Of a stretch of DNA of 46,228 nt, positions 3,031-37,989 are shown piece after piece. Both the position numbers and the translations under genes were made by a program. The notes beneath the pieces were generated by a model. The model was not told the DNA's origin, ran no database searches, and saw nothing but the letters and a program-made list of their open reading frames with translations. This stretch comes from a virus, in the IMG/VR virus record IMGVR_UViG_3300042914_001987, positions 1 to 46,228 of that record. One strand, written 5' to 3'. Position 1 is the stretch's first letter. Each line of letters begins with the position of its first letter.

Positions 3031-3456
3031 TTAGAGTTCCTGTAGGAGTCGGTGAAGCTCGACCGGACTGTCGCACCTGAGGGGCAACCCCATGGCGCAC
3101 AGGATGGTCGACACAACGCCGACGCAGGTGGTTCTTTTTGGATGGTATCCAGCGAGGAGCATCAGCTCCGAGACGAACATCCAGGAAGGTGAGCTGACCA
3201 CATGGCCCTCCCCCAGAAGCGACACCAGCTTTGGGTCGTGGGGAGGAGGGTCTATGGTGAAGGATTCTCTGACGTACTTCTGGATGACACGTTCGGCAAG
3301 ATCTGCAGGTCGCCAGGAGGACGTCTCCCCTCGGGGGACGGTCAGGTAATGGTCCCCGTAGCGGATGCCGACGTGGACGGCAGGGAAGCCCCTAAGGGTA
3401 CCCGATAGAACGCTAAGGGTATCCCCTAGGTTCATGAAGTCTACCCTTACTAGCAT
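3031..3456 (-). CDS. Possible permuted NlpC/P60 (papain-like) cysteine hydrolase
   Basis: A 141-aa protein with a His in a beta-strand context (PAVHVGIRYGDHYLTV, about residues 24-40) followed later by a Cys at the start of a helix (KRTTCVGVVSTILCAMG, about 107-123). That His-before-Cys order is typical of circularly permuted NlpC/P60 and LRAT-like papain folds, used by some phages to cut peptidoglycan peptides. The assignment is inference from two motifs. If right, this is a candidate lysis or entry peptidase. The start has a good Shine-Dalgarno (AAAGGAG) and lies downstream of a strong hairpin at 3502-3529. Confidence 0.6.
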   Translation of the reverse strand: MLVRVDFMNLGDTLSVLSGTLRGFPAVHVGIRYGDHYLTVPRGETSSWRPADLAERVIQKYVRESFTIDPPPHDPKLVSLLGEGHVVSSPSWMFVSELMLLAGYHPKRTTCVGVVSTILCAMGLPLRCDSPVELHRLLQEL

Positions 3457-3529: not shown

Positions 3530-3570
3530 CTATTGACGTTCTATAGGTCCCACCATAAAGGAGGGGGTAA

Positions 3571-4296
3571 TTACGTCCCTCTCAGGAACACACTTGGCGG
3601 AGCAGCGGTAGACCAATTACCGAAACTAGCCCACAGTGACGTTGAAAGCGTTGGAAATGAACCGCTGGATGAGTACGTGGCAGTGTAGGAAATGCTAATG
3701 TACCTATTATACGAATTAGGTACAATATGCAGAATAGGCAGCGAGCCACTAGAAACGGTAGTCATGTTACTAGCTGCGCCTCCCGCCCATATTGCTAGCC
3801 AGTATTGCGTGTTTGCATTAATGCTGTAAGATACAGTTTGTGTCTTTGCACCAAATGTACCAGAAGACACCTCAGCTGTCTCCACCAATGCAGATGTACT
3901 TGGGCGACCACTTGAGTCAGATCCGTATATTCCAGCTCGAACTAAACCACCAGGGCTGTTAGCGGACACGGTCCACGCCATCTGGTTTATTGAGAAGGAA
4001 TAAGGAAAATTAACAGGATACATCCTAAGTGTATTAGCACTGATGCTTGCTGTGCCGCTAGCGTTATTTACCAACACGCCATTTGTGTAAAAGCCTGTAA
4101 GTGGCTTAAACCATGGAGTGGTCGGTGTTGCAGAGCCACCGCCACCGGCGCCGATCTCCACTACCGTGCCATTGTCCTTCTTTGTGAACACCTTGCCATC
4201 GGCCGTATTCACAGCAAGCTCGCCTGCTGAAAGAGAAACACTAGATGGAACTGCGCCAGTTGTGCTGGATCGCTTGTGTTTGATCGTGTTAGCCAT
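3571..4296 (-). CDS. Fibre-like / receptor-binding protein with beta-sandwich C-terminus
   Basis: A 241-aa protein. The N-terminus (MANTIKHKRSSTTGAVPSS, then LSAGELAVNTADGKVF) is the short module found at the start of many phage fibre and baseplate-associated proteins, and it matches the start of the next gene (MANTVRIKRRA). The rest is a Ser/Thr/Gly/Tyr-rich beta sequence resembling secreted carbohydrate-binding domains. The gene is visibly AT-richer than its neighbours, as expected for an exchangeable receptor-binding tip. It is last of three fibre-like genes and is followed by the 3502-3529 hairpin. The receptor is unknown. Confidence 0.75.
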   Translation of the reverse strand: MANTIKHKRSSTTGAVPSSVSLSAGELAVNTADGKVFTKKDNGTVVEIGAGGGGSATPTTPWFKPLTGFYTNGVLVNNASGTASISANTLRMYPVNFPYSFSINQMAWTVSANSPGGLVRAGIYGSDSSGRPSTSALVETAEVSSGTFGAKTQTVSYSINANTQYWLAIWAGGAASNMTTVSSGSLPILHIVPNSYNRYISISYTATYSSSGSFPTLSTSLWASFGNWSTAAPPSVFLRGT

Positions 4297-14164: not shown

Positions 14165-16597
14165 TTAGGCAAAGAAGTACTTGGAGTTCAGGACGCTGTT
14201 GATGTCGAGAGAACCAATCGGAGGAGGCTCTGGTATCTCGATACCTGATTCCACCATCCAGTCATGCAAGCCCATGACCAGATTCTCAGTGTGCATCTCC
14301 ACGAACTGCTCTCGGAGACGCTTCTCGACTACATGGATGGCACCGGCATGAGTGCCATACGAATCGTGGATGAACTGGAACGACGTCAGCCCATCCTCCA
14401 TCACTCCGTGGCATGTCAACACCAGATGCGAGGCATCCAGTGAGTGCACGACGTTGGCCACCACGCCACGCATCTGTGCAGCCACGTCGACCACCGGTAG
14501 GTCTGCCTTGATTGTCAGCTTAATTCCGTTTACCTCGATGCGCTTGTCCTCTTGATCAAGGTAGCGCATGCGGCACGGGAATCCGCTTGGAGTGACCCAC
14601 TCCACTGGCTTGCCTTCGCGTCCCAGTGCCTCGGCACAGGCGCGCATCCAGTCCATCAGACGAGCCGCGCTGATGACGACATCACGCACGGCCAGGTCGA
14701 TCTTCTCTGCCAGGTACCACGCGTTCTTGTATTTGGATCCCTGCAGCGAGTCAGTGAAGCCATCGGCAAGCAGACCGTCGCGCATGCCGGGCTTGGTCAC
14801 ACCGTAGGGGTATGCTAGTACCGAACGCTTGACTACCTTTCGTCTCTTCTTAGGATTCTGCATTGTCTCTAGCCAGGCAATCGGAGGAATGTCCTGGTTG
14901 CAGTCGTCGAGAACCTGACCCGATGCAATGGCGGCGTCTGCGTCTGCATCCACCGCATTGTGGACCAAGGCAGCGACGTTGGCGTACAGGTCCTGGGGGA
15001 CGTCGGCATCCACCAGGTTGACCGCCTCGCCGCCCACCTCGTCACGCCCCATGGCGGACAGGTGCTGAAGGCCATTCTGCGATCCGTCCTTGCACACAGA
15101 GAGATGGCTGACATAGGTGGTTGGATCACCCGATGACATGGCACGTGCGATGTCCCTCGCTACCTGAACGAATAGGAACGCATCGTCATACTCCAACCAG
15201 CGCATGTCGTTCTCAACGTCAGGCTTGTCTCCCCACGTGGTGTCCCACCACTTCACGCGGTCGTCGAAGGAGATCTTGTCCTGACCTGCGCAGCCAGCCG
15301 CCCAGATCTTGAGTTCACGAAGGCCGTTGCTCCCTAGAGGCCTTCCCTCTGCATACTGGATCAGCGCCTTGCACATGTCGGATCCCTGCGGATGGACCGC
15401 AGTGGATGCCGGGTAGATGCGTCCCCTCCAGTCAAGGCAATGGACGAAGAAGACTGGCTTGCCCACCAGTGTCTCCGCCTCCTTGATGGCGATGAACGCC
15501 TTGATGCGCTTGCTGACCGCCGTCTGCGCCGCAGACTTGATCGCATCGCGCTTCTGCCTCCACACCTTGATCTCCTCGCGTGACGCGCCCTTCGAGATCG
15601 GAGGGAGTTCCTCGGACGGCACCGATGGAATCAGCCCATCAAACTTTGGGTTGTTTGCGTGGAACACCCGTGTCGCAAGGGCCAGCGTCTCCGTGTCTAT
15701 CTGCCACTCGACGTTCTGAATGGCGTTCACGGCTCGAAGCACGTAGCCGATGTCGTAGTTGCCTAGGTCAGGCCTGTGATGGCCGCTGACCCCGTGGTAC
15801 TTGATCGGCTCCACAAGGTTGAACCTGTATCCGCCCTTGATGTTCTTCCCATCCTGCGTCCACGGCACAGGAGGACATGTCATTGGAGAACATGCGGGAA
15901 GCATCAACTCGCAGAACGACGTCATCTCCTCCAGCTTGTCCTTGACGTCGTCCGTCTTCTCGATGAAGTACACGGTGCGCTTCTTGTCACGCACCAACTT
16001 CAGTTCAAACCCGATGCCTAGGCGACACACCAGCATGATCAGCCGTGTGCCGATCCCCAGGCTCTGAGTAAGCGTCCATCGGATGGACTTGCCGTTCATC
16101 TTCTTGAACAGCTTCCTGATCTTCGACTTGTCCCCGCGGATCTTGTCGATCATGTTGCGGGAAAAGCCACGGTCTTCCTTGCTGCGGAGTCTGTTGATCC
16201 GCTGGATCTCCTCGAGTTCGTGCTCGAGTTTGATCCGTCCTGCAAGGGTGTTGGCGGCGTGGGTCAGCTTGCCTGACTCCGATGTCTCGATCTTGATCAG
16301 CGTGGCCAGGGTCATCAGGGCCAGCTTGTCGGCACCCATGGTCAGGTAGGCGGGGCCCCATGTAGCAGGTCGCCCCGCCGCAGCCATGCCGCCAAGCATG
16401 CGCTGCTGGTCCTCGAGTATGGCGTCGGAGACCATCTGAATCTTCTTGGAGACCATCGACCGGCTGGCCGGTGACAGTTCCATGTTCTCCAGTGCACGGC
16501 GAAAGCGATCGACGCCCTTGTCGATCGACTTCAGTTCCATCTCGTCATTGACCGCCGTCCACTTGGTCTTCTCCTCTTCGCTCAGTTCCTTCCACAT
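14165..16597 (-). CDS. Single-subunit phage RNA polymerase (T7 gp1-like)
   Basis: An 810-aa polymerase from the ATG at 16597 (MWKELSEEEK). Catalytic features are intact, numbered from this start: CKDGSQNGLQH with Asp504, the O-helix KRSVLAYPYGV (about 590-600) with catalytic Lys and Tyr, and IHDSYGTH with Asp745. The C-terminus ends YFFA, like the FAFA foot of T7 RNAP. It is about 70 residues shorter than T7's 883, mostly in the N-terminal promoter-binding and exit domain. It should transcribe the middle and late genes from its own promoters. The first 53 bases overlap the nuclease gene. Confidence 0.98.
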   Translation of the reverse strand: MWKELSEEEKTKWTAVNDEMELKSIDKGVDRFRRALENMELSPASRSMVSKKIQMVSDAILEDQQRMLGGMAAAGRPATWGPAYLTMGADKLALMTLATLIKIETSESGKLTHAANTLAGRIKLEHELEEIQRINRLRSKEDRGFSRNMIDKIRGDKSKIRKLFKKMNGKSIRWTLTQSLGIGTRLIMLVCRLGIGFELKLVRDKKRTVYFIEKTDDVKDKLEEMTSFCELMLPACSPMTCPPVPWTQDGKNIKGGYRFNLVEPIKYHGVSGHHRPDLGNYDIGYVLRAVNAIQNVEWQIDTETLALATRVFHANNPKFDGLIPSVPSEELPPISKGASREEIKVWRQKRDAIKSAAQTAVSKRIKAFIAIKEAETLVGKPVFFVHCLDWRGRIYPASTAVHPQGSDMCKALIQYAEGRPLGSNGLRELKIWAAGCAGQDKISFDDRVKWWDTTWGDKPDVENDMRWLEYDDAFLFVQVARDIARAMSSGDPTTYVSHLSVCKDGSQNGLQHLSAMGRDEVGGEAVNLVDADVPQDLYANVAALVHNAVDADADAAIASGQVLDDCNQDIPPIAWLETMQNPKKRRKVVKRSVLAYPYGVTKPGMRDGLLADGFTDSLQGSKYKNAWYLAEKIDLAVRDVVISAARLMDWMRACAEALGREGKPVEWVTPSGFPCRMRYLDQEDKRIEVNGIKLTIKADLPVVDVAAQMRGVVANVVHSLDASHLVLTCHGVMEDGLTSFQFIHDSYGTHAGAIHVVEKRLREQFVEMHTENLVMGLHDWMVESGIEIPEPPPIGSLDINSVLNSKYFFA

Positions 16598-16913
16598 CGT
16601 CGACCTTCTTTCTGTGACGGTGCACATAGTCGTAGAACGGTGTGTCCTTGAAACGCTCGATGTCGGCGCCCTCCTTGAGGGCTCCGTGCTTGTTGCAGCC
16701 TTGACAGAGCAGTGATCGTGGCTTGCCTGAGTCGTGGTCGTGGTCGAGCGTGAAGCCCGACCTGCCCGACGAGCCTGTGTACAGGACCTCAGCGCATATG
16801 GCGCACAATCCTTTCTGCGCTTCCCACATCCTGAAGAACAACCCTCTGGTCATTCCTCGGATGCCTTGGCTTCGCCACACTGCCAGCCGTCGTTCATCCC
16901 ACGGTGGCTTCAT
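16545..16913 (-). CDS. Endonuclease VII-type (HNH, treble-clef) nuclease
   Basis: A 122-aa protein with CAICAEVLY, then the HNH core TLDHDHDSGKPRSLLC and QGCNKHGALKEG, the T4 endonuclease VII recombination nuclease signature (two Cys pairs for structural zinc, catalytic Asp-His). It could resolve branched DNA or nick host DNA. With RusA it gives this phage two junction-type nucleases of different families. The start forms TAATG with the previous gene. The last 20 residues overlap the RNA polymerase start and are charged. Confidence 0.9.
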   Translation of the reverse strand: MKPPWDERRLAVWRSQGIRGMTRGLFFRMWEAQKGLCAICAEVLYTGSSGRSGFTLDHDHDSGKPRSLLCQGCNKHGALKEGADIERFKDTPFYDYVHRHRKKVDDVEGTERRGEDQVDGGQ

Positions 16914-18241: not shown

Positions 18242-18266
18242 GCAGACACTCTCTCTTTCTATGAAG

Positions 18267-18298
18267 TAGAGTAAAGAAGAGTATAAGTACTAGTAAGG
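18267..18298 (+). repeat. 32-nt element, inverted relative of 3445-3478
   Basis: Reads TAGAGTAAAGAAGAGTATAA, then GTACTAGTAAGG on the plus strand. It lies in the gap between the sigma-like gene and the 83-aa gene and matches the minus strand at 3445-3478 with three substitutions and a two-base gap. Confidence 0.55.
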
Positions 18299-18315
18299 TA
18301 TCTACCTATAGTACC
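18297..18315 (-). promoter_or_regulatory. Candidate phage RNA polymerase promoter
   Basis: Minus strand: GGTACTATAGGTAGATACC. The core ACTATAGGTAGA differs from the T7 initiation region ACTATAGGGAGA by one base. A closely similar string, GGTACCATAGGTATACC, occurs at 26426-26442 after the terminase gene. A weak hairpin with loop GAA (18315-18333) stands just upstream. It would drive the operon from the 83-aa gene through the RNA polymerase. The assignment is inference. Confidence 0.45.
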
Positions 18316-18353
18316 TATAGAGTTCCTCTATGGAGGGGCGGGTAATAGGGGGT

Positions 18354-18845
18354 CTAGCCGATTTGGTCAGCCAGCCTCGACAGGGTCTTCACCCCACGGC
18401 TCCGGCCGACGTACACGGCCATCAGGCTCCTGCCCGTCGCCTTGGCAGCAGACTCGGGGGCGATGCCCCAGTACTCCATCAGGACAGCCTCCCGCTGTGA
18501 GTCAGGAAGACTGTCTAGAAGCGGTCGGATCGACTCCATTGCCTCGAGCATCTCGGCTGGGTTAGAGTCGAAATGACTCTTACTCATGGCGTCCGACTCC
18601 CATACGCAGGGGTACGACGACTTGGGCAGGTCGTCCCTGAAGAACTGGAGGGTCGAGTACCGCAGGTAGGCAAAGAAGTTGGTGCCATCCACGCTGCTGC
18701 CTGTCTCGTATGCCCGAAGGGCAGCACGTTGGAAGATGTCGTCTGCGTCATGTACCTGACCGCGGTATCCGTACTTGGCCATGAAGTTGAGGATGAACGT
18801 GTAGTACGGCAGGAGTTCGGTTGGGATGTGCTTCAGCTTGTTCAT
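18354..18845 (-). CDS. ECF-like sigma factor
   Basis: A 163-aa two-domain protein. Residues about 12-75 resemble sigma region 2 (FILNFMAKYGYRGQVHDADDIF, then ALRAYE and a NFFAYLRYSTLQFFRDDL helix). Residues about 110-160 resemble region 4, a helix-turn-helix that reads the -35 element (LLDSLPDSQREAVLMEYWG, SAAKATGRSLMAVYVGRSRG). Size and layout fit ECF sigma factors. In a phage with its own polymerase, it could redirect host RNA polymerase to early genes. It starts as ATGA on the peptidase stop. A diverged, inactive or anti-host variant is also possible. Confidence 0.75.
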   Translation of the reverse strand: MNKLKHIPTELLPYYTFILNFMAKYGYRGQVHDADDIFQRAALRAYETGSSVDGTNFFAYLRYSTLQFFRDDLPKSSYPCVWESDAMSKSHFDSNPAEMLEAMESIRPLLDSLPDSQREAVLMEYWGIAPESAAKATGRSLMAVYVGRSRGVKTLSRLADQIG

Positions 18846-19789
18846 AGTCCGTCCTTCCAGTCACGCCAGTCGTTCTCGGACAGGAAGTCAGGATCGGTGA
18901 TCCCGACATCGGGGTTGGTGTAGTCCCAGCGGTGGGAGCGGTAGTTGCGCACGTACCTGCGCCAGTTGTCATTGTCGTCGTCGGCCCCGTGGATGACGTC
19001 TCGGACGGGAGACGGCACCATGTTCTTGCCAGCCACCCTGATCAGGGAGCAGCACAGCAGGTATGCGAAGGAGACGTTTGTCATCTCCGCATGGGTGTGC
19101 TGGGCGAAGTACCCGACGCTGAGGTTGGTGCACTCGGGCACCATGTCGGTGAACTCGGCGCTGTCGGTGAACAGCCCGGTGGGGTCGCACCTGAGGTCGA
19201 TGACCTCGGATGATTCCTGCCAGATCGCCTTGGCCAACTGCGTGGCCCACACGTCAGAGCAGCACCGTGACCCACGCTGGTGGGTGATGATGCTGTCGTA
19301 GCCCTTGCGGTCGAGCGAGATGCACGCATCGTACTCGAGTATGCCCGTGTCCTTGGCGAACTCACCCGAACCGATGCATCCGACCTCCTCGCCTTGGAAG
19401 AAGGCGTAGGTGCCAGGGCAGCCAGCGCGGATCATCATCGCCATGATGGCGCACCCGACCTTGTCGTCTGCACCCAGGATGGACTTACCGTCCGTCTTGA
19501 GCATGTCGCCGTCCCACTTCATGTTGACGAGGCGCGGCTCATGGTCTGCCGTGTCGCAGTGGGCAGTCCACAGGATGCGCTCGCCGGGTCCTGGGACCTT
19601 GACGACGAAGTTGCCGTGCTTGTCGATCTCAGTGCTTCCGCCGTCGTATGTCGCCTTCCGCCCAGGTGCCCCGCCGTGAGGCGGGGTGGGAAGATGCGGC
19701 CACACGTACGGTTCGAAGCCGTGCGGGGTTGTCATGCGGCACATCGCCATCAGCGTGTGCTTGAACTTGCGGTATGTTGGGGTCCACAT
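18842..19789 (-). CDS. M20/M28/M42-type metallopeptidase-like protein
   Basis: A 315-aa protein with the layout of dinuclear zinc exopeptidases: HCDTAD (His77, Asp79), GADDKVG with a bridging Asp (108), FFQGEEVG with the catalytic Glu pair (134-135), a following Asp near 160 and QHTHAE for the last ligand. Full motif spacing suggests an active aminopeptidase or amidohydrolase. The C-terminus is an extra acidic, Trp-rich tail (NDWRDWKDGL). Such enzymes are unusual among early genes of T7-like phages. Substrates could be host peptides or a small metabolite. Confidence 0.8.
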   Translation of the reverse strand: MWTPTYRKFKHTLMAMCRMTTPHGFEPYVWPHLPTPPHGGAPGRKATYDGGSTEIDKHGNFVVKVPGPGERILWTAHCDTADHEPRLVNMKWDGDMLKTDGKSILGADDKVGCAIMAMMIRAGCPGTYAFFQGEEVGCIGSGEFAKDTGILEYDACISLDRKGYDSIITHQRGSRCCSDVWATQLAKAIWQESSEVIDLRCDPTGLFTDSAEFTDMVPECTNLSVGYFAQHTHAEMTNVSFAYLLCCSLIRVAGKNMVPSPVRDVIHGADDDNDNWRRYVRNYRSHRWDYTNPDVGITDPDFLSENDWRDWKDGL

Positions 19790-22116
19790 TAGACGGTGAC
19801 TCCTCCGAAGTAGGCCTTGACATCAGACCACTGCTTCATGTAGACCGCTTCAGCGACCTCCTTGAGGCGAATGTCGTTGTCGGCCCAGATTGCAGTAATG
19901 ACGGTGAACAACTCGTTGTGATGCTGGCAGTACACGCCAGCGATGAAGGTTCCGTTGAACAGGATCAAATAGTTGCCAGACTGAAGCACGCGGTCGAACT
20001 TGATCGTGTTCGGGCCATTGGCGACGTACGCATAGCTACCGAACATGAAGTTGCTGGCGTACATCGACTTGCAGCGCATGTCGTACGCATGAGCCTTGGT
20101 GCAGAACATCGACTCGATCGCCCTGCATGGGTGGCCGTGCGAAACCATGTACCCTGTCGGATGGTCGCACGACGCGTAGAACGTGCCCATCCCACGCTGC
20201 TCGTACTTTGGGAAGTACATCGTACCGACGACCGAGCCGTTGGACGTGATGTGCATCGACGTTGTCGACAGCGTGACGTACGGCATCTGGGAGATCACAT
20301 GACCCACGGGGTACAGGCTGGACGCGGTTGTCGGCGGCACCACAACGGTCGTCATACACTTGGTCGCGTCGAACTTGACCAGCATGGCGTGTGGGCCGAC
20401 ACGCATGAACCGGTTGATCTCATACTCGCCGTTGCCGAGGGCGCGCTTGACCTTCGGTCCAGCGTAGATCTCCGTATCATAGTGGACGATGTACGTGCCA
20501 GCCTGAGACAGCAGGTTCCGCTCCTCCCAGTTGAACGAACTACATGAGATCTCGGCGGGGTACGCGCTGGACACTTCCGTAGAGTCGAACTTCAGCACAT
20601 GTGCCACCTCCTCACGCGAGACCCACGTCGGCTCACGTGTGTCGACACCCCAGGATCCGCCGTCCCGCATCGACAGCACGTGCGAGACCTCGACGAACGT
20701 GCCGTCCTCGATCAACTTGTTCCAGATGCGACGTCCGCCGACTACCGTCGTCTCGTCCTCAGGGACCATGCCCTGGGAGTCGTCCTTGTCGATGGTCGTC
20801 TCGCGCAGGACGACGGTCCTCGAAAGGGCGGTTGAGTAGCGCTGGTTGACCGGCCAAGCGCGGATGGAGATCCGCTCGCGCCGAGGAGCGTACTCGTAGT
20901 CGAACTGCAGCGTGTCCGACTTGATCTCGTACGCCTCGTCGATGTGTCGGTACGACTCGTCGCAGCACCACGCGAAGTCCCCGTTGTCGACGCAGGAGTC
21001 GCACACGTCGCCGTACCCCTCGACGTAGCGGATGTCGTCCTCGCCACAGCGCTCCTCGCAGCACGCGCAGTAGTGACCGTTGTCGTTGTACTCGTCATCG
21101 TCGAACTGACGGCCCCATGCGTTGCCGTACTGGTTGTTGCTGGTCTCCTTCCAACCCGCGAGACGGTCGATCTTGCTGTACCGAGGCGGCACCCACAGGA
21201 CCTTGCTGCCGATGACCTTGTTCATGTGGTACAGGTAGCCGCGGTCTACGTATGGCGCGTACTCCGTCTGAATGAGCGGAACGACTCCGCTGTCGGCAGC
21301 CTTGTCGACGGTCAGGACGCCCTTCCGCTCGCAGAAGGACTTGACCCGCTCGACCTGATCGTTCAGCATGGCACCAGTGGCACCACGCGCAGACACGTAG
21401 TACACGCGTCCGTAGAACCAGCCGGGACCGAACGCAAGATTGTCGGGGGCCGGGTCGAAGGAGTCAGTCGGGCGGAACACCAGCGCCCTGCCGATGGGCT
21501 TGTCGCCGTCCTTGAAGACAGCGAGTGCGCACTGGTTGGGATTGGTGCCCCACACCTCGGTCTTCGGGCTGTTGTAGCCCGTCATACACGAATGCGTCGT
21601 CCCGTCGTTCTCGCCGTACCACTCGGCGAGTTGCGGTCCAGTCAGCATGTCGACGGTGAGGTCCTCGACAGGACACTTCAGCCGCCGTGTGATCTCCGCT
21701 GACGCGGCCTCGATCTTGGTCGAGTCCTTCGACACATCCGTCTGAAGGGAGGCGACGAAGCGAGAGACCGACAGGCCACTCTTCTTGGATCGGTACAGGA
21801 CCTTGGGGCAGTCCTGAATGACGGGCTCTATCTGAGCCCACGTCCTAAAGTCCTCGTCACGATCCTTCATGACGAGGTCGTAGAACGCCCACCAATCCAG
21901 CACATCAACGAGGACATGGTGGAGCGTGACGGTCACCTTGCCGTCAGCCACCACGAACTCGGGGATCTCGAAGCGAGTCCCCGTCACCTCGTCGCCGCCG
22001 TTGGGACGGCACTTGAAGTCCTTGATCTGCTTGGCGCAGAAGGCCGAGAACATGCACGCAAGACCCTGCTCCTGCAGGATCGCCTGAACCGTACCGAAAG
22101 TCATCTCCGCAGCCAT
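19789..22116 (-). CDS. Large cysteine-rich protein of unknown function (775 aa)
   Basis: Residues 345-391 hold a dense metal-binding cluster: CACCEERC (350-357), CDSC (372-375) and WCCDESYRH (383-391), enough for two zinc knuckles. Residues 170-181 contain NDGTTHSCMTGY, a His-Ser-Cys-Met motif I have seen in other large phage proteins of unknown role. The C-terminal 200 residues contain HPTGYMVSHGHPCRAIES, rich in His and Cys. There are no membrane segments. It opens with a strong GGAGGTG site behind a 3-base-loop hairpin. Position in the early region suggests host takeover; I do not assign one. Confidence 0.85.
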   Translation of the reverse strand: MAAEMTFGTVQAILQEQGLACMFSAFCAKQIKDFKCRPNGGDEVTGTRFEIPEFVVADGKVTVTLHHVLVDVLDWWAFYDLVMKDRDEDFRTWAQIEPVIQDCPKVLYRSKKSGLSVSRFVASLQTDVSKDSTKIEAASAEITRRLKCPVEDLTVDMLTGPQLAEWYGENDGTTHSCMTGYNSPKTEVWGTNPNQCALAVFKDGDKPIGRALVFRPTDSFDPAPDNLAFGPGWFYGRVYYVSARGATGAMLNDQVERVKSFCERKGVLTVDKAADSGVVPLIQTEYAPYVDRGYLYHMNKVIGSKVLWVPPRYSKIDRLAGWKETSNNQYGNAWGRQFDDDEYNDNGHYCACCEERCGEDDIRYVEGYGDVCDSCVDNGDFAWCCDESYRHIDEAYEIKSDTLQFDYEYAPRRERISIRAWPVNQRYSTALSRTVVLRETTIDKDDSQGMVPEDETTVVGGRRIWNKLIEDGTFVEVSHVLSMRDGGSWGVDTREPTWVSREEVAHVLKFDSTEVSSAYPAEISCSSFNWEERNLLSQAGTYIVHYDTEIYAGPKVKRALGNGEYEINRFMRVGPHAMLVKFDATKCMTTVVVPPTTASSLYPVGHVISQMPYVTLSTTSMHITSNGSVVGTMYFPKYEQRGMGTFYASCDHPTGYMVSHGHPCRAIESMFCTKAHAYDMRCKSMYASNFMFGSYAYVANGPNTIKFDRVLQSGNYLILFNGTFIAGVYCQHHNELFTVITAIWADNDIRLKEVAEAVYMKQWSDVKAYFGGVTV

Positions 22117-23909: not shown

Positions 23910-23983
23910 TTGCCCCTGAGGGGCAACATTGTGGAAGGCCGTTGCAGCCCGTCAAGGCAGCGCCAGCCGATTCAGTCAACGGC
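23910..23983 (-). promoter_or_regulatory. Two-hairpin leader of the 162-aa gene
   Basis: A 7-bp outer stem (GCCGTTG 23938-23944 / CAACGGC 23977-23983) encloses CCCGTCAAGG (23948-23957) and CAGCCGAT (23964-23971), the core also found in the 22888 leader. After 11 bases comes a 7-bp hairpin TTGCCCC/GGGGCAA with loop UCA (23910-23926), leading into AAGGAAAC and ATG. The outer stem overlaps the stop codon of the zinc-finger gene. Confidence 0.7.
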
Positions 23984-24191
23984 AGCGCCGATACTCGCGC
24001 TCCGCAATACGCAGAGCCTCGGTATCGGCGCCGTTGACCGCTACGATCTCACCCGCAGTCTTATGACTGTACATCATGAAGACGCGGTTCTTCGGTGTTG
24101 TGCTGCACGACGCGCAGCATTGCGTGTCTGGAAAGATCTCCAGACGGATCGGCGGAATCTCTCCGCCGCAAGAGTTACATGACATCGGCAT
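23976..24191 (-). CDS. DksA/TraR-type C4 zinc-finger protein
   Basis: A 71-aa protein. CNSCGGEIPPIRLEIFPD, then CCASC, gives C-x2-C-x17-C-x2-C, the spacing of DksA/TraR fingers. TraR-like proteins insert into the secondary channel of host RNA polymerase and change promoter use without ppGpp. The usual DxxDxA tip motif is not evident and the finger sits at the N-terminus with a short helix after it (GADTEALRIAEREYRR), so function may differ. The start overlaps the previous gene by 17 bases. Confidence 0.75.
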   Translation of the reverse strand: MPMSCNSCGGEIPPIRLEIFPDTQCCASCSTTPKNRVFMMYSHKTAGEIVAVNGADTEALRIAEREYRRCR

Positions 24192-24993: not shown

Positions 24994-25007
24994 AGCCGAC
25001 TGAGTCG
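24994..25007 (-). repeat. Early-region hairpin repeat, copy C
   Basis: Minus strand CGACTCAGTCGGCT. CGAC and GTCG pair around a UCA loop (24997-25007). It shows the same loop and core as the leader hairpins. Confidence 0.55.
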
Positions 25008-25079
25008 AGTGGCTTGCAGCACCCTGCTTGGGTATTCCCGCAGACTGGCTAGTGGGTTCTCACTCTGGCGTAGCGGTGC

Positions 25080-25103
25080 GCGCAGTCGAATGAGTCGACG
25101 CGC
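25080..25103 (-). repeat. Early-region hairpin repeat, copy D
   Basis: GCGC plus GTCGA pair with TCGAC plus GCGC, nine pairs with one bulged base and loop CTCAT in the transcript. Its core GACTCATTCGACTGC is a variant of the repeat family. Confidence 0.55.
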
Positions 25104-25190
25104 GGCGCGCTACGTTAGCGTACCCTGCGGTTATTGCTGACTTTGACATAGTCCACTCCACACGCATTCCCTACGCCGACGACGGGCGGC

Positions 25191-25206
25191 AGCCGATTGA
25201 CTCGGC
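25191..25206 (-). repeat. Early-region hairpin repeat, copy E
   Basis: Minus strand GCCGAGTCAATCGGCT. GCCGA pairs with TCGGC around GTCAA. It is the best match to the consensus GACTCAATCGGCTG. Confidence 0.55.
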
Positions 25207-25426: not shown

Positions 25427-25816
25427 TCAGACTAGGCGACCGCCACCTTGCACCATACCGCCGAAGGTAATGGCGCGCAGGACGTCGATCACGGGAAGGG
25501 ACACCGTCTGGCGCGTCTTCTCTCCGCGCAGCTTCGACTCCACCTCGACTCCGACGCGCGTGCCGCGCGCAGTCTGCGCGAGACTCGCGCTACGCTCGAC
25601 GTCTGCGAGGATCATTGCAGCGAGGGTACGGGCGTTCGTCTGCGCGCGCATCTTGCGGTCACCCTTCTCAGCGTTCGCGGTCTTGAAGATGCCGACAATG
25701 GCGCGGGTGTCGTCGCTGAGGCGCGCGGCGTTCGTCTGCGCGAAGCCAACGGCGTTCGGTGTCGCGGTCGCATCGGTGGCGGTGTCGGTCACGGTAGGGG
25801 CGGTCTTGGAAGCCAT
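25427..25816 (-). CDS. First early protein, unknown (129 aa)
   Basis: The only supported gene between the terminase end and 24.4 kb, so probably the first to enter the cell, the place where T7 carries anti-restriction gene 0.3. Residues 1-25 are Thr/Ala-rich and disordered; 28-90 are helical (DDTRAIVGIFKTANAEKGDR, then ARTLAAMILADVERS); 95-129 carry VEVESKLRGEKTRQTVSLPV. It is basic overall, unlike acidic DNA mimics. GAAGG precedes the start, behind a two-hairpin leader, and an intrinsic terminator follows. Function unknown. Confidence 0.8.
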   Translation of the reverse strand: MASKTAPTVTDTATDATATPNAVGFAQTNAARLSDDTRAIVGIFKTANAEKGDRKMRAQTNARTLAAMILADVERSASLAQTARGTRVGVEVESKLRGEKTRQTVSLPVIDVLRAITFGGMVQGGGRLV

Positions 25817-25925: not shown

Positions 25926-25954
25926 AGTATCGGCTAGATTCGGATGGAAGTCAA
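25926..25954 (-). promoter_or_regulatory. Candidate host sigma70 promoter of the first early gene
   Basis: Minus strand TTGACT (25954-25949), a 17-base spacer, then GATACT (25931-25926). The -35 matches consensus at five of six and the -10 at four of six. It is correctly placed and oriented for the 25427-25816 gene. Confidence 0.55.
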
Positions 25955-26131
25955 GTGCTTAGGGCGAGATTCCGAAAGATTGTGTCTCCAAAGACAGTAC
26001 GGTATCCGTTAGGGTATACCCTGGACTCTGTAAACGAAAGGCACTACCGTTTACATTATGGTTGCTGGCATGGTGCGCGTGCTAATGTCAATCTAGGCGG
26101 GAGCGATTAGAGTAGGCGCAAGCGCATTCGC

Positions 26132-26157
26132 TTGACTATTGCGGTCGCAAGTGTCAA
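26132..26157. promoter_or_regulatory. 26-bp palindrome TTGAC-N16-GTCAA, copy 1
   Basis: Arms TTGAC/GTCAA and inner TTGCG/CGCAA make an imperfect palindrome of exactly 26 bp. On the minus strand it begins with a full TTGACA. It looks like an operator for a dimeric protein, possibly overlapping a -35 box. Confidence 0.5.
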
Positions 26158-26188
26158 CGAATGGTGGAGTGGACAAAGAGGGCGCCCC

Positions 26189-26214
26189 TTGACAATCTCC
26201 AAGCGGAGTGTCAA
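26189..26214. promoter_or_regulatory. 26-bp palindrome TTGACA-N14-TGTCAA, copy 2
   Basis: Same arms and the same total length as copy 1, 57 bp away, with inner CTCC/GGAG. The interior sequences differ, so the arms are what is conserved. Confidence 0.5.
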
Positions 26215-26425
26215 TGGAGCGCCCTATGGCTTACAATGGTCCCCAGCGTGAGTCCCAGCGTGTACCCGCAGGCGCAGGCGCGAGGGTACGCCCCCGTGGG
26301 CGCCCGTGTGGGCGTCGAGCGGGGGGTAGAGGGGGGATCGGCGCAGCTGGCGAAGCTCCATACCCCGACTCTAATATCCGACCCCCAGTCGATTTCCGGT
26401 CAGGAAACCCGCATGTGAGCCCTAT

Positions 26426-26454: not shown

Positions 26455-26483
26455 TATGAAGGAGAACTGCGTTCTCCTTCATA
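26455..26483 (-). terminator. 13-bp hairpin after the terminase gene
   Basis: TATGAAGGAGAAC pairs perfectly with GTTCTCCTTCATA around loop GCA. No U-tract follows (TATATAGTATC), so it may be a terminator for the phage polymerase or a processing site, closing the late transcription unit. Confidence 0.65.
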
Positions 26484-26502
26484 ATGGGTCGGGTAATACC
26501 CC

Positions 26503-31920: not shown

Positions 31921-34900
31921 TTAGTTCTCCAGGTCTCCAAGCATGAGCCGGGAGTACCAAGTGTTTAGAAGAGGTGTGTGAGACTGCATGAACTTGAAGT
32001 CACGTTCCCCGGTCTTCTCATCAGAGAACACCATGCGGGAGAACTGCGATCCTGACTGCAGGATTGGACCGAAGATGTTGTTGCCGCGAATCGTCTGTCC
32101 ACCGCCACCGGTCAGCGAGTCGATTAGCGACATCGCTGAGGTGTGGTGGGCTCCGAGCCACGGGGTCTTGACGGCGCGGCTGAGGAAGAATCCCGCCGGG
32201 TTGTCGTTCCACTGCTGCTCGAGCCTGTCGGAATCCGACTTGCCCGTGGCTACCTCACGGATCGACTGATAGATGTTCTCTCCCACCATCAGTGCAGCGT
32301 AGGTCGTCGCAATGGTCGAGAGTCGACCGTTGGCGGCGGTGCGGAACGCCACGTTGGTGGCAAAGGCACGGCTGTACGAAGTCAGGTTGTAGAACATCTT
32401 GTCGATGGCGGACCCGGCTTCAACAGAGGAAGCAAGGCTTGCCGTGGGTACGTGGAAGTTGTGAGCCGACGTCAGGAACTCGAGCATCGCGCCCATGGTC
32501 CTGTCGTCGACACGCTCCCGCAGGGTCCACAGGTTGAAGACCCGATCCTGACCCGCGAGACCATTCCTGAGGTTCCTGACGACATCGGGCGTCAGTAGTC
32601 CTGCGTGGTTCATCTGAATGGCGACGTCCCAGGGAATACCTGCATCCTGTGCAAGCTGCCTGAACCGTGCCCGTGCCGCGTCGGTATTCTCCGCAACGGC
32701 TCCTGCACCCTCGAGTGAACGGGCAAGCCGTTCCATGTTGTCGAGACTGCGGGAGATGAACTTCTTGGCCTGGCGGTCTGCGACGACACGGGCGATGCCC
32801 GAGAAGTACTGCATTCCACCGGAACGCATGCCGGTCTCGCCGAACGCCTCTGCAAATGCAATGGCTGATCCGGTGATTCGACCGTACGCTTCGGCTCCTT
32901 CGGTAACTGCCTCCTGTCCCGTGGCTACGTGCCAGAACCGTTCCCAGGGCGCAATGAAGCGCTCCGAGACCGAGGTACCGACACCTGATCCGAAGGACGA
33001 GTGGGCGTGAGAGATGTACTGGTCGACGCCATGCGAGATGTCCTCGTAAATCCCAAGGTCACCCGAGTTTCGGATAGCGTGAAGTGCGTCGAACATACCG
33101 GACATTCCACCGCCGTACATCTTAGATGCCGTGATGGCACGTGGAAGCTCGACGGCAAGACCTGCCATTCCCCAGAACGCACCTGCGGATCCACGGACAA
33201 TGCCGGTGGAGATTCGCAAGGCAGCGTCGAGGGCTGGCTTGGTGTTGTACTGGGCGCGACCGGTGGCGAACTGCCACTTCCTCTCAAGGGCGTCGATGGC
33301 CGACTCCATCTCCTTGCGGACAACCACGTCGGTGACCGACACCGCCGACTGCTTCAGGGCAGCGAGCACCTCGTCAAAGGTGCACGGAGTCCCCATGGCT
33401 TCGGACAGCTGGGCATCGAACATGATCTGAGGAGCACGGATCTCCATGTAGAGCTTGTGCTCCATCATGGGCGATCCAATGTACCAGCGACGGACCCGCG
33501 GATCGTTGGCGACCGCATCCTCGAGGGTGCGTGCCGCGGTGGACCGGGATCCCTGAGCCGCACGACGGAATCCGATTCCATCCTGGGTCAGGCTGTTGGA
33601 AAGACGGCTGACCGTCTCCGCTGCCATTTCGTTGGCGTGCTGGACAATGCGAGCATCGAACGCCGCCTGATCAGCTGCGCTAAGGACATTGTAGGCAGTC
33701 CCTCGGGGAAGTCCAAGTGCATCCGCCAGTTCATCGGGAAGAGGATCCCCTGACGTCCTGAGACGGTCTGCATAGACATCCCTGAAGCTGTCCTGGGCCG
33801 CTCGCTGGTTGGCGAGGATAGCCCTGGAGTTTCCTTCGCGCGGCCGGTAGTTGGGACGACGGACGCCAGGATGGGTTACATCCAGTCGGTTGCCGACCCG
33901 GTCATAGGCATCGCGGAGGAACGCATGGACCTCGAGTTCACCGGGATTGAGGCCCGTGGTGACTCCGGTATCCAGTGCGGTCTGGACCCGAAGGTCCGAC
34001 TCCGCGGTCCACTGTCCCGCCCTGCGGACACGCTGCTCGATGGACGCGAGACGCGCCACCGACAGCTTGCCCTGGTCACGGAAGTTCTGGAGCGAGCGGA
34101 GGTTTCCATTGTTGAATCCGAGCGCCTTGACAAGCGGCTCGGGGCGATCAAGCATGTTGAACGCCGTAACGATCATGTCGAACTGACGGGAGATGTTGTG
34201 GATCTGCCCGAACTTGGTTCCTGAAGTCTGAAGACGGAACAAGGCACGGCCAAGGTTCCGGAGTGCGGGGATGCGTCCCATCGACATCATGATGTTGTTC
34301 ATGATTAGGAGACGCTCTCCCGACTTGTCCTTCGAGGTCAGCTTCTCCAGGATCTGGGTCCTGACATCAGCTGCCTTCTCGGCCTTGGTCTTCGGAACGT
34401 CCTTCTTTCCAGCAGGAGCCGGTGCCGACGTAGCGGTACCAGATGCCTTGGGATCGGTGACGGCTCCGTTCTCGTACCGCATCTCGCGTCCAACGGACGG
34501 AGCACGGGCTGCCCGAGCTTCGGCATCCGTATCCATTGCGTTCTCCATCAGCTGGGCATCGCGCATCGCCGCGGCTTCCTTGCGGGAAGTTTCGGTCGGA
34601 ACGCTACGTCCCTTTCCGGAGGACATCTCTGGACGGGTCCTGATGCCAGCCGCCGCCTCGTCGAGGCCTTCGGCGATCACAGGATCTGCACGCTGGGCAC
34701 CAAGCACGGAGAAGCGGATGTTGCGTCCATCCATGGTGGCGCTGACGAGATCCTCGGTGGGTTCTCCTGCAAGGACGGCACGCTCGCGCTTCACGAAGAA
34801 GTCCTCGAGCGCAGTCCAGCGCGGAAGTTCGGTCACGTCCCCGTACATGTTGTACAGGCGGCGGTTCAGTTCCTCCGCGAACTCCACGTCTCCGCTCTCC

Positions 34901-37900
34901 ATCGCTACGGCGATACGGGCTCGCATGCGCGAGACCTCGGTCACGTCCTTCACGTTGGGGGTGGTCGACGCAAGTTCATGCGAGCGACGGATCATCGCGG
35001 GTCGCCCCTCGATGCCGTCGATCTCGGCCTTCACCTTGTTGGCACGCTTCTCGAGGGATGCAATCTCCTCGTCGTACTGCTTGATGCGGGGATCCGCATC
35101 GGTGGCTCCAGAGGCCTTCAGCTTCTCTCGAGCCGCCTTGGTGGGCTCGAGTTCGTCATTGATCATCTTGAGTTCTGACTGACGTGCCGTGTACGTCGTT
35201 CCGCCATTGGCTTCGGACGCAGCACGACGCACACGGTTCCTGAGCGTACGTCCACCCTTGGTGTACGCAAAGCCAGGTCCCTTCTCAGCCAGCTTCTTAT
35301 CCAGCGCAGCTGCTTCCTTGGTCCAGGCCGCCTTTCGTTCGGCTGCCCTGGCTGCATTCAGCATGTCAGGGGTGACTGCCGACGCAGGGGTCAGGTCCTT
35401 GTTCAGGTCTGCGACCTGTCCAGTGAGCTGAGCCTCGTACCGGTCAGCCAGGTTGCTGAGACGCTTGGCTGCGCGTTCCTTCTTTGCAATGAGGGCGTCA
35501 AGGGCCTTCAGGGTCTTGGCGCCCTTGATGGCTCCAGACTCCTTGAACCGCTTGGCTTCCTCCACCGACTTCCTGAGACGGGCGACTCCCTCTCGGGCTG
35601 CCGCGATCTTGTCGTCAAGCGACAGGTCCTTGGCACCTTCCTGGATCTTCGCCACCTCGGGGTCGACCTTCGCCATCTCCTCGCGGAGGATGGCTTCCTG
35701 CTCCGCAACCGATGCACGCGGCATGACGGGACGCTCGGTCCTGACAGGCCTGAGGGGATTGGATCCCGACATCAGTGCATTGTCAGTCGAGTTCTCGCCG
35801 AGGAAGCGGTCGACGAACTCGACCTTCCAGCGGTTGGCGGCACGGGTCTGCTTGACGGCCGCCTTGCGGACGGCGTCGATGCCAGCGGCGGAGATCTCGA
35901 CCTTCCACAGCGGGAAGCCAAAGGCCTCCGTCATGGTACGGTCGAGGGCGTCCTTACCGGCACGTGCCACGATCTCTCGACGGGTGCGCTTCACCTCGTC
36001 AAGGGTACCGGTCACTGCTGCCTCTGCCTCGTTGAACTTGGCAAGGGCCTTCTTCAGTTCGTCCATGGCACTCGACACGTCGGTGTGCCACATCGGATCC
36101 TCGTCGACGATCCGCTGCGAGTCCAGGACCACGGCTGCATTGTCTGCATCGGGATCCATGGCCGCATCGAGGCGTCGACGCGTCTCTCCGGCCTTCTTGC
36201 GGTGGGCGACGAACGTGTCGCGCACCTTCTTCAGGCTGATCTGGAGTTCCTTGAAATGGTCAAGCTTCTCGAACGCCTCGTCGTTGAGGCGGGTGAATGC
36301 TTCATTGAGCTGATTGATTGCTCCGTCGATCTCGCCTAGAGTACGCCCGGTGCGCTCCATGACCTCCGTGTGCATCTCGTTGAGGATGTCCACGGCTCCA
36401 CGGAACCGTCCCTGGGTGACGTTGTCGTTCAGGCGGTTGACGGCCTGGGTCATCTCGTCGGCCGCTGAGGCCTCGTTGATGGTCCTGACGCGCTCGACGG
36501 CTGCACTGAGTGCCTTGTCCTCGAGCAGGTTGACGCGCTTGCTGGCAGAGATGGCATTGGCGGCACGGATCACTCGATCCTTGTCACCACGTGCCATCCA
36601 CTGGGCGACAAGACGGGCATCCCCGGAGGCTTCCTCCAGGTAGTCCACGACGAAGCGGAACTTCTCGAACTCGTCGCCCATGTGGGCACGGAGCAGGTCG
36701 ATGGACTTCTTGCGGAAGAAGTGCTTCTCGTCTCCGCCGCCGAGGACATAGTCCGCGACGTCGTCCTGCCACTCGTCGATCTGGGCCTGGGTGCGCTGGG
36801 CTGCCTCGAGGCGGTCGGCGACGTGACGGTTGAGCTCGGCGGCATCGGGCTTGTTCTTCTCGATCCATTCCGACAGTCCGTCCATGTCCTCGGTGGAACC
36901 GAACATGGCTCCTGCACGGGCCTCGTCGTCCATCAGGACGCGGCGAAGCGGATCGTCAGGACCCACGATGGTATCAAGGCTCCGCTCGAGGCGGCTCTTG
37001 GACGTGCGGTAGGCACTCTGGGCAACATAGTCGATGGTGGTACCGAGGGTGCCTTCATCGCTGTTTGCCGCCATGTTCTCAAGCGCTGAACCGGTGTTGT
37101 TGACGTTGTCGGTCTTCCTGAGCCACCGTCCGATCGCATCGCCACCGGCTGAGAAAGACACTCCAAGGAGAGACCCGAACGCGACGTTGTCGGTCCAGTT
37201 CTCGTCCTTTTCGTAGGTCTTTCCGTAGACGCGGTAGCCGTCGTCGTTGAGCTGCTTCCACTCCGAGTAGGAGGAGGACGCACCGTCAAGGCCGTCCCAC
37301 AGGTAGGTGGCTGCCTTCCACGTGCGATTGTACTGGGTCGACAGTGCGGTGATGCGCGCTCCCATCGACAGCGTGGTCGCAGGAGCGGCGGCAACAGCCG
37401 CGGTCGCACCGGCCGCAGGAGCGGCAAGACCTGCGGTGGCGACGATGGAGATCGTCGTCATCGGGTCGACGGTGACGTAGTTGACGATGCCTGAGAAGAC
37501 CTTCTGAGAGGCGTATCCCAGCATGTACGACTCGCGGTCGTACTGCTCGATCTCCATCTGGGCACGGGTTACGACCTCGATCTCGCGCATGCGCTGATCG
37601 AGGTGCTCGGCTGAGACGGAGTTGTTGATGATGTCATCGACCAGCTCCTGACCACCGCGCTGCAGTACTGCAACACGTTGCTCTAGTGGCATAGTCTCGT
37701 ACAGGGTTTTGGCCTGGGTGGGATTGAAGTTGGGATCGGGCTTCGAGCCAACATCGGGATCCCATCCCTGCCACCAGTCGATGATTGCACGCTGGGGCGT
37801 GCGCATGTATCCGAATGCCCATCGACCAGCACCACCGTCAGTCGCGCCATAATAGGCACGGTCGACCTGGGTGGCGATGAAGTCTGGAAGGGCGGAATAC

Positions 37901-37989
37901 CCTACGCCTCCGTCAAGAAGCGTAGGGGCTACTCTGACTCCAGAGTCCTTTGGAAACACGTACGGCTGATCGTAGTTGAAAGTACTCAT
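31921..37989 (-). CDS. Giant internal virion protein (T7 gp16-like position)
   Basis: A 2022-aa protein, far longer than T7 gp16 (1318). The N-terminus is aromatic and Gly-rich (RWAFGYMRTPQRAIIDWWQG); residues about 180-215 are a hydrophobic Ala-rich stretch; about 350-1000 is largely charged coiled coil. The end (EFLTSAHNFHVPTASLASSV, NPAGFFLSRAVKTPWLG, LNTWYSRLMLGDLE) follows the C-terminal pattern of podovirus ejection proteins. I find no lytic transglycosylase signature, which T7 gp16 has at its N-terminus. It is ejected first to span the envelope. Confidence 0.88.
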   Translation of the reverse strand: MSTFNYDQPYVFPKDSGVRVAPTLLDGGVGYSALPDFIATQVDRAYYGATDGGAGRWAFGYMRTPQRAIIDWWQGWDPDVGSKPDPNFNPTQAKTLYETMPLEQRVAVLQRGGQELVDDIINNSVSAEHLDQRMREIEVVTRAQMEIEQYDRESYMLGYASQKVFSGIVNYVTVDPMTTISIVATAGLAAPAAGATAAVAAAPATTLSMGARITALSTQYNRTWKAATYLWDGLDGASSSYSEWKQLNDDGYRVYGKTYEKDENWTDNVAFGSLLGVSFSAGGDAIGRWLRKTDNVNNTGSALENMAANSDEGTLGTTIDYVAQSAYRTSKSRLERSLDTIVGPDDPLRRVLMDDEARAGAMFGSTEDMDGLSEWIEKNKPDAAELNRHVADRLEAAQRTQAQIDEWQDDVADYVLGGGDEKHFFRKKSIDLLRAHMGDEFEKFRFVVDYLEEASGDARLVAQWMARGDKDRVIRAANAISASKRVNLLEDKALSAAVERVRTINEASAADEMTQAVNRLNDNVTQGRFRGAVDILNEMHTEVMERTGRTLGEIDGAINQLNEAFTRLNDEAFEKLDHFKELQISLKKVRDTFVAHRKKAGETRRRLDAAMDPDADNAAVVLDSQRIVDEDPMWHTDVSSAMDELKKALAKFNEAEAAVTGTLDEVKRTRREIVARAGKDALDRTMTEAFGFPLWKVEISAAGIDAVRKAAVKQTRAANRWKVEFVDRFLGENSTDNALMSGSNPLRPVRTERPVMPRASVAEQEAILREEMAKVDPEVAKIQEGAKDLSLDDKIAAAREGVARLRKSVEEAKRFKESGAIKGAKTLKALDALIAKKERAAKRLSNLADRYEAQLTGQVADLNKDLTPASAVTPDMLNAARAAERKAAWTKEAAALDKKLAEKGPGFAYTKGGRTLRNRVRRAASEANGGTTYTARQSELKMINDELEPTKAAREKLKASGATDADPRIKQYDEEIASLEKRANKVKAEIDGIEGRPAMIRRSHELASTTPNVKDVTEVSRMRARIAVAMESGDVEFAEELNRRLYNMYGDVTELPRWTALEDFFVKRERAVLAGEPTEDLVSATMDGRNIRFSVLGAQRADPVIAEGLDEAAAGIRTRPEMSSGKGRSVPTETSRKEAAAMRDAQLMENAMDTDAEARAARAPSVGREMRYENGAVTDPKASGTATSAPAPAGKKDVPKTKAEKAADVRTQILEKLTSKDKSGERLLIMNNIMMSMGRIPALRNLGRALFRLQTSGTKFGQIHNISRQFDMIVTAFNMLDRPEPLVKALGFNNGNLRSLQNFRDQGKLSVARLASIEQRVRRAGQWTAESDLRVQTALDTGVTTGLNPGELEVHAFLRDAYDRVGNRLDVTHPGVRRPNYRPREGNSRAILANQRAAQDSFRDVYADRLRTSGDPLPDELADALGLPRGTAYNVLSAADQAAFDARIVQHANEMAAETVSRLSNSLTQDGIGFRRAAQGSRSTAARTLEDAVANDPRVRRWYIGSPMMEHKLYMEIRAPQIMFDAQLSEAMGTPCTFDEVLAALKQSAVSVTDVVVRKEMESAIDALERKWQFATGRAQYNTKPALDAALRISTGIVRGSAGAFWGMAGLAVELPRAITASKMYGGGMSGMFDALHAIRNSGDLGIYEDISHGVDQYISHAHSSFGSGVGTSVSERFIAPWERFWHVATGQEAVTEGAEAYGRITGSAIAFAEAFGETGMRSGGMQYFSGIARVVADRQAKKFISRSLDNMERLARSLEGAGAVAENTDAARARFRQLAQDAGIPWDVAIQMNHAGLLTPDVVRNLRNGLAGQDRVFNLWTLRERVDDRTMGAMLEFLTSAHNFHVPTASLASSVEAGSAIDKMFYNLTSYSRAFATNVAFRTAANGRLSTIATTYAALMVGENIYQSIREVATGKSDSDRLEQQWNDNPAGFFLSRAVKTPWLGAHHTSAMSLIDSLTGGGGQTIRGNNIFGPILQSGSQFSRMVFSDEKTGERDFKFMQSHTPLLNTWYSRLMLGDLEN

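Follow-up and report, generated by a model that had tools for sequence, protein, structure and literature searches.

An ECF-type sigma factor-like gene paired with a single-subunit RNA polymerase gene in a clade of uncultured T7-like viruses

In one clade of uncultured T7-like viruses, a gene for an ECF-type sigma-like protein occurs together with a gene for the phage's own single-subunit RNA polymerase (RNAP), and comparison of its members supports this combination as a conserved one. Phages are commonly regarded as following one of two routes, bringing an RNA polymerase of their own (T7) or re-aiming that of the host via a sigma factor (phiEco32, SPO1, T4). The window, the stretch of DNA analyzed here, comprises 46,228 bases and corresponds to a virus record in IMG/VR. 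Its sigma-like protein is best read, with a probability of about 0.58, as an early phage alternative sigma of the ECF type that would work with the host core RNAP, either ahead of the phage enzyme or alongside it. ECF sigmas are already known from podophages without an RNAP (phiEco32, CW02); what appears to be new is the pairing with an RNAP, as the openly licensed literature yielded no described phage with both an ECF sigma and its own single-subunit RNAP.

The sigma-like gene and its predicted domains

An earlier note on this DNA had placed an ECF-like sigma factor at 18354-18845, and these limits are exact: the open reading frame is intact, with 163 codons, and runs on the minus strand, the plus strand being interrupted there by stops (Table 1). 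The presence of sigma regions 2 and 4 at ECF size, also claimed there, was borne out, the protein consisting of region 2, a linker, and region 4, with regions 1 and 3 absent. The NCBIfam model TIGR02937 (sigma70-ECF) aligns with residues 14-156 (model positions 10-162 of 165; E 3.5e-8), Pfam Sigma70_r2 with residues 14-71 (E 0.0016; 18.7 bits, cut-off 24), and Sigma70_r4_2 with residues 105-155 (E 0.0037; 17.3 bits, cut-off 25.7), while PHROG 1740, annotated as RNA polymerase sigma factor, matches at E 3.2e-5. The TIGR02937 score of 33.2 bits does not reach the curated cut-off of 42.9, and the NCBIfam families listed for the protein are sigma factors in 25 of 25 cases, all under their curated cut-offs. 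Such a cut-off is a criterion of annotation and not of biology, and scores that stay below it in every curated family mark a diverged protein. The window ORF is confirmed as a real gene, which by homology is predicted to code for an ECF-type sigma-family protein. Searches with the single window protein gave no match, neither by tblastn against 50,697 phage records at E<=1 nor in a scan of IMG/VR, and a scan of genome contigs for a host or prophage relative found none.

Sigma factors, rather than unrelated helix-turn-helix (HTH) proteins, lead both the profile and the fold matches, in line with the earlier note, with region 2 by itself giving weak ones. AlphaFold2 run on an alignment of five clade sigmas produced a model with a mean pLDDT of 78.5 and its helices in two groups, for which sigma factors head the list in a Foldseek search of the PDB. 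The profile of the same five sequences matches CnrH (5.6e-8), E. coli sigmaE (1e-6), and other ECF sigmas, with both domains covered. The model of region 4 superposes on SigR region 4 (5fgm) with a Z of 10.8 and an rmsd of 1.6 A over 63 residues in VIA-align, where middling Z values are easily reached by small helical domains, and region 4 is accordingly modeled as a sigma-4 domain. For region 2 modeled alone (pLDDT 80), the top Z values of 5.2-6.0 are not above background; the top 15 fold matches are mostly sigma region 2 domains, at modest Z, and a profile search with this region matches ECF sigmas exclusively, if weakly. The assignment of region 2 is supported less well than that of region 4. 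Region 2 of the window protein carries the motif DADDIFQ in a predicted 2.2-like, core-binding helix, and the corresponding DxDD(I/V)xQ is kept in four of the six clade sigmas, the other two departing from the core-binding motif. Of the two regions it is the DNA-binding one, region 4, that is better conserved, R148 and R150 being kept among the clade sigmas. With the cellular ECF sigmas CnrH, SigR, RpoE, and SigH the clade proteins share the two-domain layout and the fold of region 4; they differ in being very diverged, in scoring below family cut-offs, and in that no linked anti-sigma was seen.

Table 1. Features of the window that bear on the sigma-like gene and its surroundings.
Feature	Position	Strand	Remarks
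Sigma-like gene	18354..18845	-	163 aa; profile matches and fold
Predicted sigma region 2, residues 8-74	18624..18824	-	Pfam r2 E 0.0016; region-2-only model
Predicted sigma region 4, residues 101-161, LP...G...A...R.R...L	18363..18545	-	Fold compared with SigR region 4
Post-sigma element ATTACCCGCCCCTCCATAGAGGAA, separating sigma gene from RNAP block; predicted promoter of the phage RNAP	18323..18346	-	Five relatives, same position
Second element copy, after terminase gene	26474..26497	-	17/24, at edge of shuffles; synteny
Third element copy, late region, upstream of ORF 3031-3456	3548..3571	-	17/24; synteny
Intergenic stretch after element, folds into hairpin	18242..18329	-	z -1.2 in window; relatives -4.8, -3.1, -3.8, -0.01
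Host-type promoter candidate TTGACT-17-GATACT, before first early ORF (25427-25816)	25926..25954	-	
T7-type single-subunit RNA polymerase gene	14165..16627	-	PF00940 E 5.6e-87; catalytic motifs intact
Endonuclease VII-like gene, directly upstream of RNAP gene	16545..16913	-	Conserved slot marker
M28-type peptidase gene	18842..19789	-	Pfam M28 E 2.1e-5; PHROG 4191 E 5e-57
775-aa ORF upstream of peptidase gene	19789..22116	-	Relatives in G012 and G021
C4 zinc-ribbon protein gene, DksA/TraR type, early region	23976..24191	-	71 aa; PF01258 E 1.4e-5

Relatives, the conserved slot, and neighboring genes

Relatives were reached via the capsid, RNAP, and other neighbor genes and then searched for a sigma and an RNAP. 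An ECF-like sigma gene lies upstream of the RNAP gene in G012, G028, and G022, and in G021 a gene between those for the peptidase and ThyX was spotted by eye and afterwards matched sigma families; a further contig, G038, represents the G012 phage again (99.8% over 5.7 kb). Four same-slot homologues match TIGR02937 independently (E 2e-5 to 2e-7), that of G012 also exceeds the Pfam r4_2 cut-off, and in those of G028 and G022 Pfam detects region 4 or a generic HTH only. The two subgroups of sigmas, window and G012 on one side and G028, G021, and G022 on the other, match each other in profile-profile comparison with a probability of 98 and an E of 5.6e-14. In an out-of-sample test, extra contigs were fetched with two other neighbor genes; the sole new contig with an RNAP that reaches the slot, L165, which is not part of the five-member profile, encodes in that place a sigma that matches at E 6.7e-34 and immediately follows a peptidase fragment. 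In all, a sigma-like gene is found upstream of the single-subunit RNAP in 6/6 distinct clade phages that cover the slot, usually directly after the M28 peptidase gene, which adjoins it in five. Pairwise identity among the six sigmas is 18-44%, and that of the window RNAP to those of G012, G028, G022, and G021 is 46-57%; a reading frame that stays open and keeps its sigma features despite such divergence points to selection to keep the gene.

The earlier note was right in giving the phage its own RNA polymerase (Table 1), and the catalytic motifs of the enzyme (DGSQNGLQH, KRSVLAYPYG, HDSYG) are intact. An RNAP is present in the clade genomes, with the catalytic motifs checked in five, and the closest named relatives of the window enzyme are about 30% identical to it. 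Its listed start at 16627 is probably to be moved to 16597, since several relatives align from residue 11. All recognized phage genes (terminase, capsid, portal, tail, RNAP, DNA polymerase) lie on the minus strand, and with a single-subunit RNAP that retains its catalytic residues and with replication, portal, capsid, and terminase genes on one strand, the window appears T7-like by gene content. The peptidase gene overlaps the start of the sigma gene by 4 bp; peptidases of the M28 type are found too in Corkvirinae, in Klebsiella and Vibrio phages, and in huge phages. Between its sigma and RNAP genes, G021 has a DNA cytosine methyltransferase-like gene (L059:5722-6651, minus strand) and a copy of ThyX, both absent from the corresponding place in the window. 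A 2022-aa protein encoded at 31921-37989 (minus strand) has no PHROG match and shares its C-terminal part alone with G022. A search of the window against a defense-system library gave no matches, and Rfam and tRNA scans found none.

A C4 zinc-finger protein at 23976 had been put forward as a second possible modifier of host polymerase. The ORF with its C4 finger exists, but the argument is a weak one, as the protein amounts to no more than a zinc ribbon whose C-terminal extension is of another kind. Its ribbon begins at residue 4, the TraR model TIGR02419 is matched just at positions 34-61 of 64, and the N-terminal coiled coil with which DksA/TraR enters the RNAP secondary channel is lacking, the sequence upstream of the ORF having been read as well. 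The predicted product thus has the C4 ribbon, yet would not be a full DksA/TraR. Its C-terminal extension (SHKTA..IV.V.G.D.EA.RIA) is conserved in a homologue of G021 (L154), so that the gene is a real one, with a putative link to host RNAP.

Outside the clade, a sigma match was seen in 0 of 48 other RNAP-bearing T7-like contigs, many of them fragments, and because the same family scan missed the G021 sigma, a true case, these absences are no proof. The 50 RNAP-bearing contigs searched included two from the clade, G038 (with sigma) and L069 (which ends upstream of the RNAP). Pectobacterium phage PP16 (Corkvirinae; Autographiviridae/T7-like) likewise has a single-subunit RNAP and the same peptidase preceded by a large ORF; a sigma search of PP16 found none, and its gp12, encoded next after the peptidase, was considered as a possible hidden sigma, which it proved not to be. 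Salinivibrio phage CW02 (gp21) and Citrobacter phage CVT22 (Zobellviridae) encode ECF sigmas of about 160 aa in T7-sized podophage genomes, and both are matched in the fold search of the clade sigma. No PF00940 RNAP was found in these two genomes; their sigma gene, unlike that of the clade, lies between the genes for primase/helicase and DNA polymerase, and their sigmas score above the TIGR02937 cut-off, whereas the clade sigmas score below it.

A repeated element and the predicted transcription map

Comparison of intergenic regions showed that each of the six clade genomes carries, on its coding strand, an element of about 23 bp whose sequence is specific to that genome. It stands directly 3' of the sigma gene in 6/6 and after the RNAP gene in 5/6, the window lacking it at the latter site, and it recurs among the late genes and after the terminase gene, two places that the L165 contig does not cover; the G028 contig shows three sites. 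The window has three copies and the relatives two to four. Most copies in the long-contig relatives score 17-22 of 22-23, where shuffled sequences reach at most 16-18, with a weaker post-terminase copy in G021. The second and third window copies, at 17 of 24, do not exceed the highest-scoring shuffles; their support comes from synteny. In L165 the element reads TAATTACCCGCCCCCTAATAGGAAA after the sigma gene and TAATTACCCACCACCTAATAGGAGA after the RNAP gene, and these copies (AATTACCCACCACCTAATAGGAGA) resemble the T3 promoter. From the contiguous length, the A/T and then G-rich right end, the position, and the copy number, we infer that the element is a promoter of the single-subunit phage RNAP, probably of the T7/T3 type.

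In every clade genome the sigma gene lies ahead of the first element copy, and would therefore close the series of genes in front of the first predicted promoter of the phage RNAP, with the RNAP gene beyond it; this layout suggests an early gene transcribed by host RNAP. The earlier view that the sigma and RNAP genes share an operon stands only in part: they are on the same strand, with the RNAP gene 1.7 kb downstream of the sigma gene, but are separated by an intergenic element that looks like a promoter. In most clade genomes the post-sigma element is followed by a hairpin, which is mostly stronger in the relatives than in the window (Table 1). Strong RNA hairpins just past the predicted RNAP promoter at L058:3718-3800 (z -4.8) and L056:5310-5430 (z -3.8) may be processing or stability sites.

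The search for host-type promoters returned five sites where 3.6 are expected by shuffling, so that the candidate before the early block is weak alone; G022 has a similar TTGACT-16-GACAAT at the same place. For a sigma-dependent promoter class, two-box enrichment in the upstream regions of the window was not above shuffles, and the phiEco32 sigma motif AATGTATA is absent from the window. The early non-coding region also holds two inverted repeats TTGAC-N16-GTCAA (26100-26223, minus strand), a possible operator or iteron, and a cluster of three exact, hairpin-like CGANTCANTCG motifs (24997-25204, minus strand); as an early-region signal the latter motif was rejected, its total count over the window being at chance level.

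Possible roles of the sigma-like protein

The nearest working analogue is gp36 of phiEco32 (Kuravirus), likewise a podophage, whose phage-encoded ECF-type sigma redirects host RNAP to phage promoters (PMC4281155, PMC3594737), the phiEco32-like phages being without an RNAP of their own (PMC4281155). There the sigma serves middle and late genes; the clade phages, by contrast, possess an RNAP and have their sigma gene within the early block. For an early alternative sigma the layout suggests the following course: host RNAP with a host sigma would transcribe the early block from the promoter region at 25954 down to the sigma gene; the sigma protein would bind host core RNAP via region 2, displacing or competing with the host sigma, and might lead the host polymerase to a few phage promoters, away from host genes; the phage RNAP would then take over from the 23-bp promoters, the first of them directly 3' of the sigma gene. 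Within this reading the two-domain homology, the conserved gene and slot, the intact phage RNAP, and the repeated element are established by the analysis, and core binding, timing, promoter recognition, and the identity of the element as an RNAP promoter are what we infer. Besides the precedent of gp36, an ECF sigma that runs phage transcription through host RNAP, the reading draws on the full-length profile matches, the fold, the 2.2-like motif in 4/6 sigmas, the slot in six phages, the profile match between the two sigma subgroups, the RNAP in the same genomes, and the order of sigma gene and first element copy; against it count the lack of a sigma promoter class, the sub-cut-off scores, the weak region 2, and the motif departures in 2/6 sigmas.

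The earlier note had proposed a third layer of control or a capture of host polymerase, and no sigma-specific promoter class was found in the window that would bear this out. The same result makes a host shut-off decoy the main rival, in which the protein replaces the host sigma on core RNAP and silences the host, while the phage RNAP does all middle and late transcription. The predicted phage RNAP promoters look sufficient for these genes, and the sigma diverges very fast in comparison with the RNAP, as host-takeover proteins do; a pure decoy, however, would have no need of a DNA-binding region 4 that is better kept than region 2, with conserved R148 and R150, and we regard this role as unlikely. 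Region 4 also scores much higher than region 2 in the structural comparisons, and the Pfam results for G028 and G022 would suit a sigma-derived HTH regulator of phage DNA that does not bind core RNAP, be it a repressor, a replication factor, or a packaging factor. This is decidedly doubtful, given that TIGR02937 and the clade profile align both domains and the linker in ECF order and spacing, and that the best structural matches of region 2 alone are still mostly sigma factors.

It is very improbable that the 23-bp element is the sigma's own promoter, from which sigma-loaded host RNAP would drive the RNAP block and the late genes. Its first appearance right after the sigma gene in every genome, its variation between genomes in step with the sigma, and a frequent GGAAC resembling the ECF -35 box would fit; yet the element is contiguous over about 23 bp and, at the sites behind the RNAP gene, stops 3-10 nt short of the start codon, which leaves no room for a -10 box downstream, its right half has the A/T and then G-rich composition of T7/T3 promoters, and the L165 copies resemble the T3 promoter. 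Mitochondrial single-subunit polymerases need accessory initiation factors, and on this model the sigma-like protein could be a promoter-recognition or promoter-opening partner of the phage RNAP instead of the host enzyme. All clade members tested have it beside such an RNAP, and its divergence between genomes parallels that of the element; these observations led us to consider this role, to which we give almost no weight.

Here a stable clade keeps both an RNAP and a sigma, with no further gene between the sigma gene and the first predicted phage promoter. The pairing suggests that these phages may direct the host polymerase either earlier than, or in parallel with, the use of their own. The clade offers very diverged small sigmas with matched promoter sets, and a relay in which the host sigma hands over to the phage sigma, and this in turn to the phage RNAP, becomes directly testable in it.
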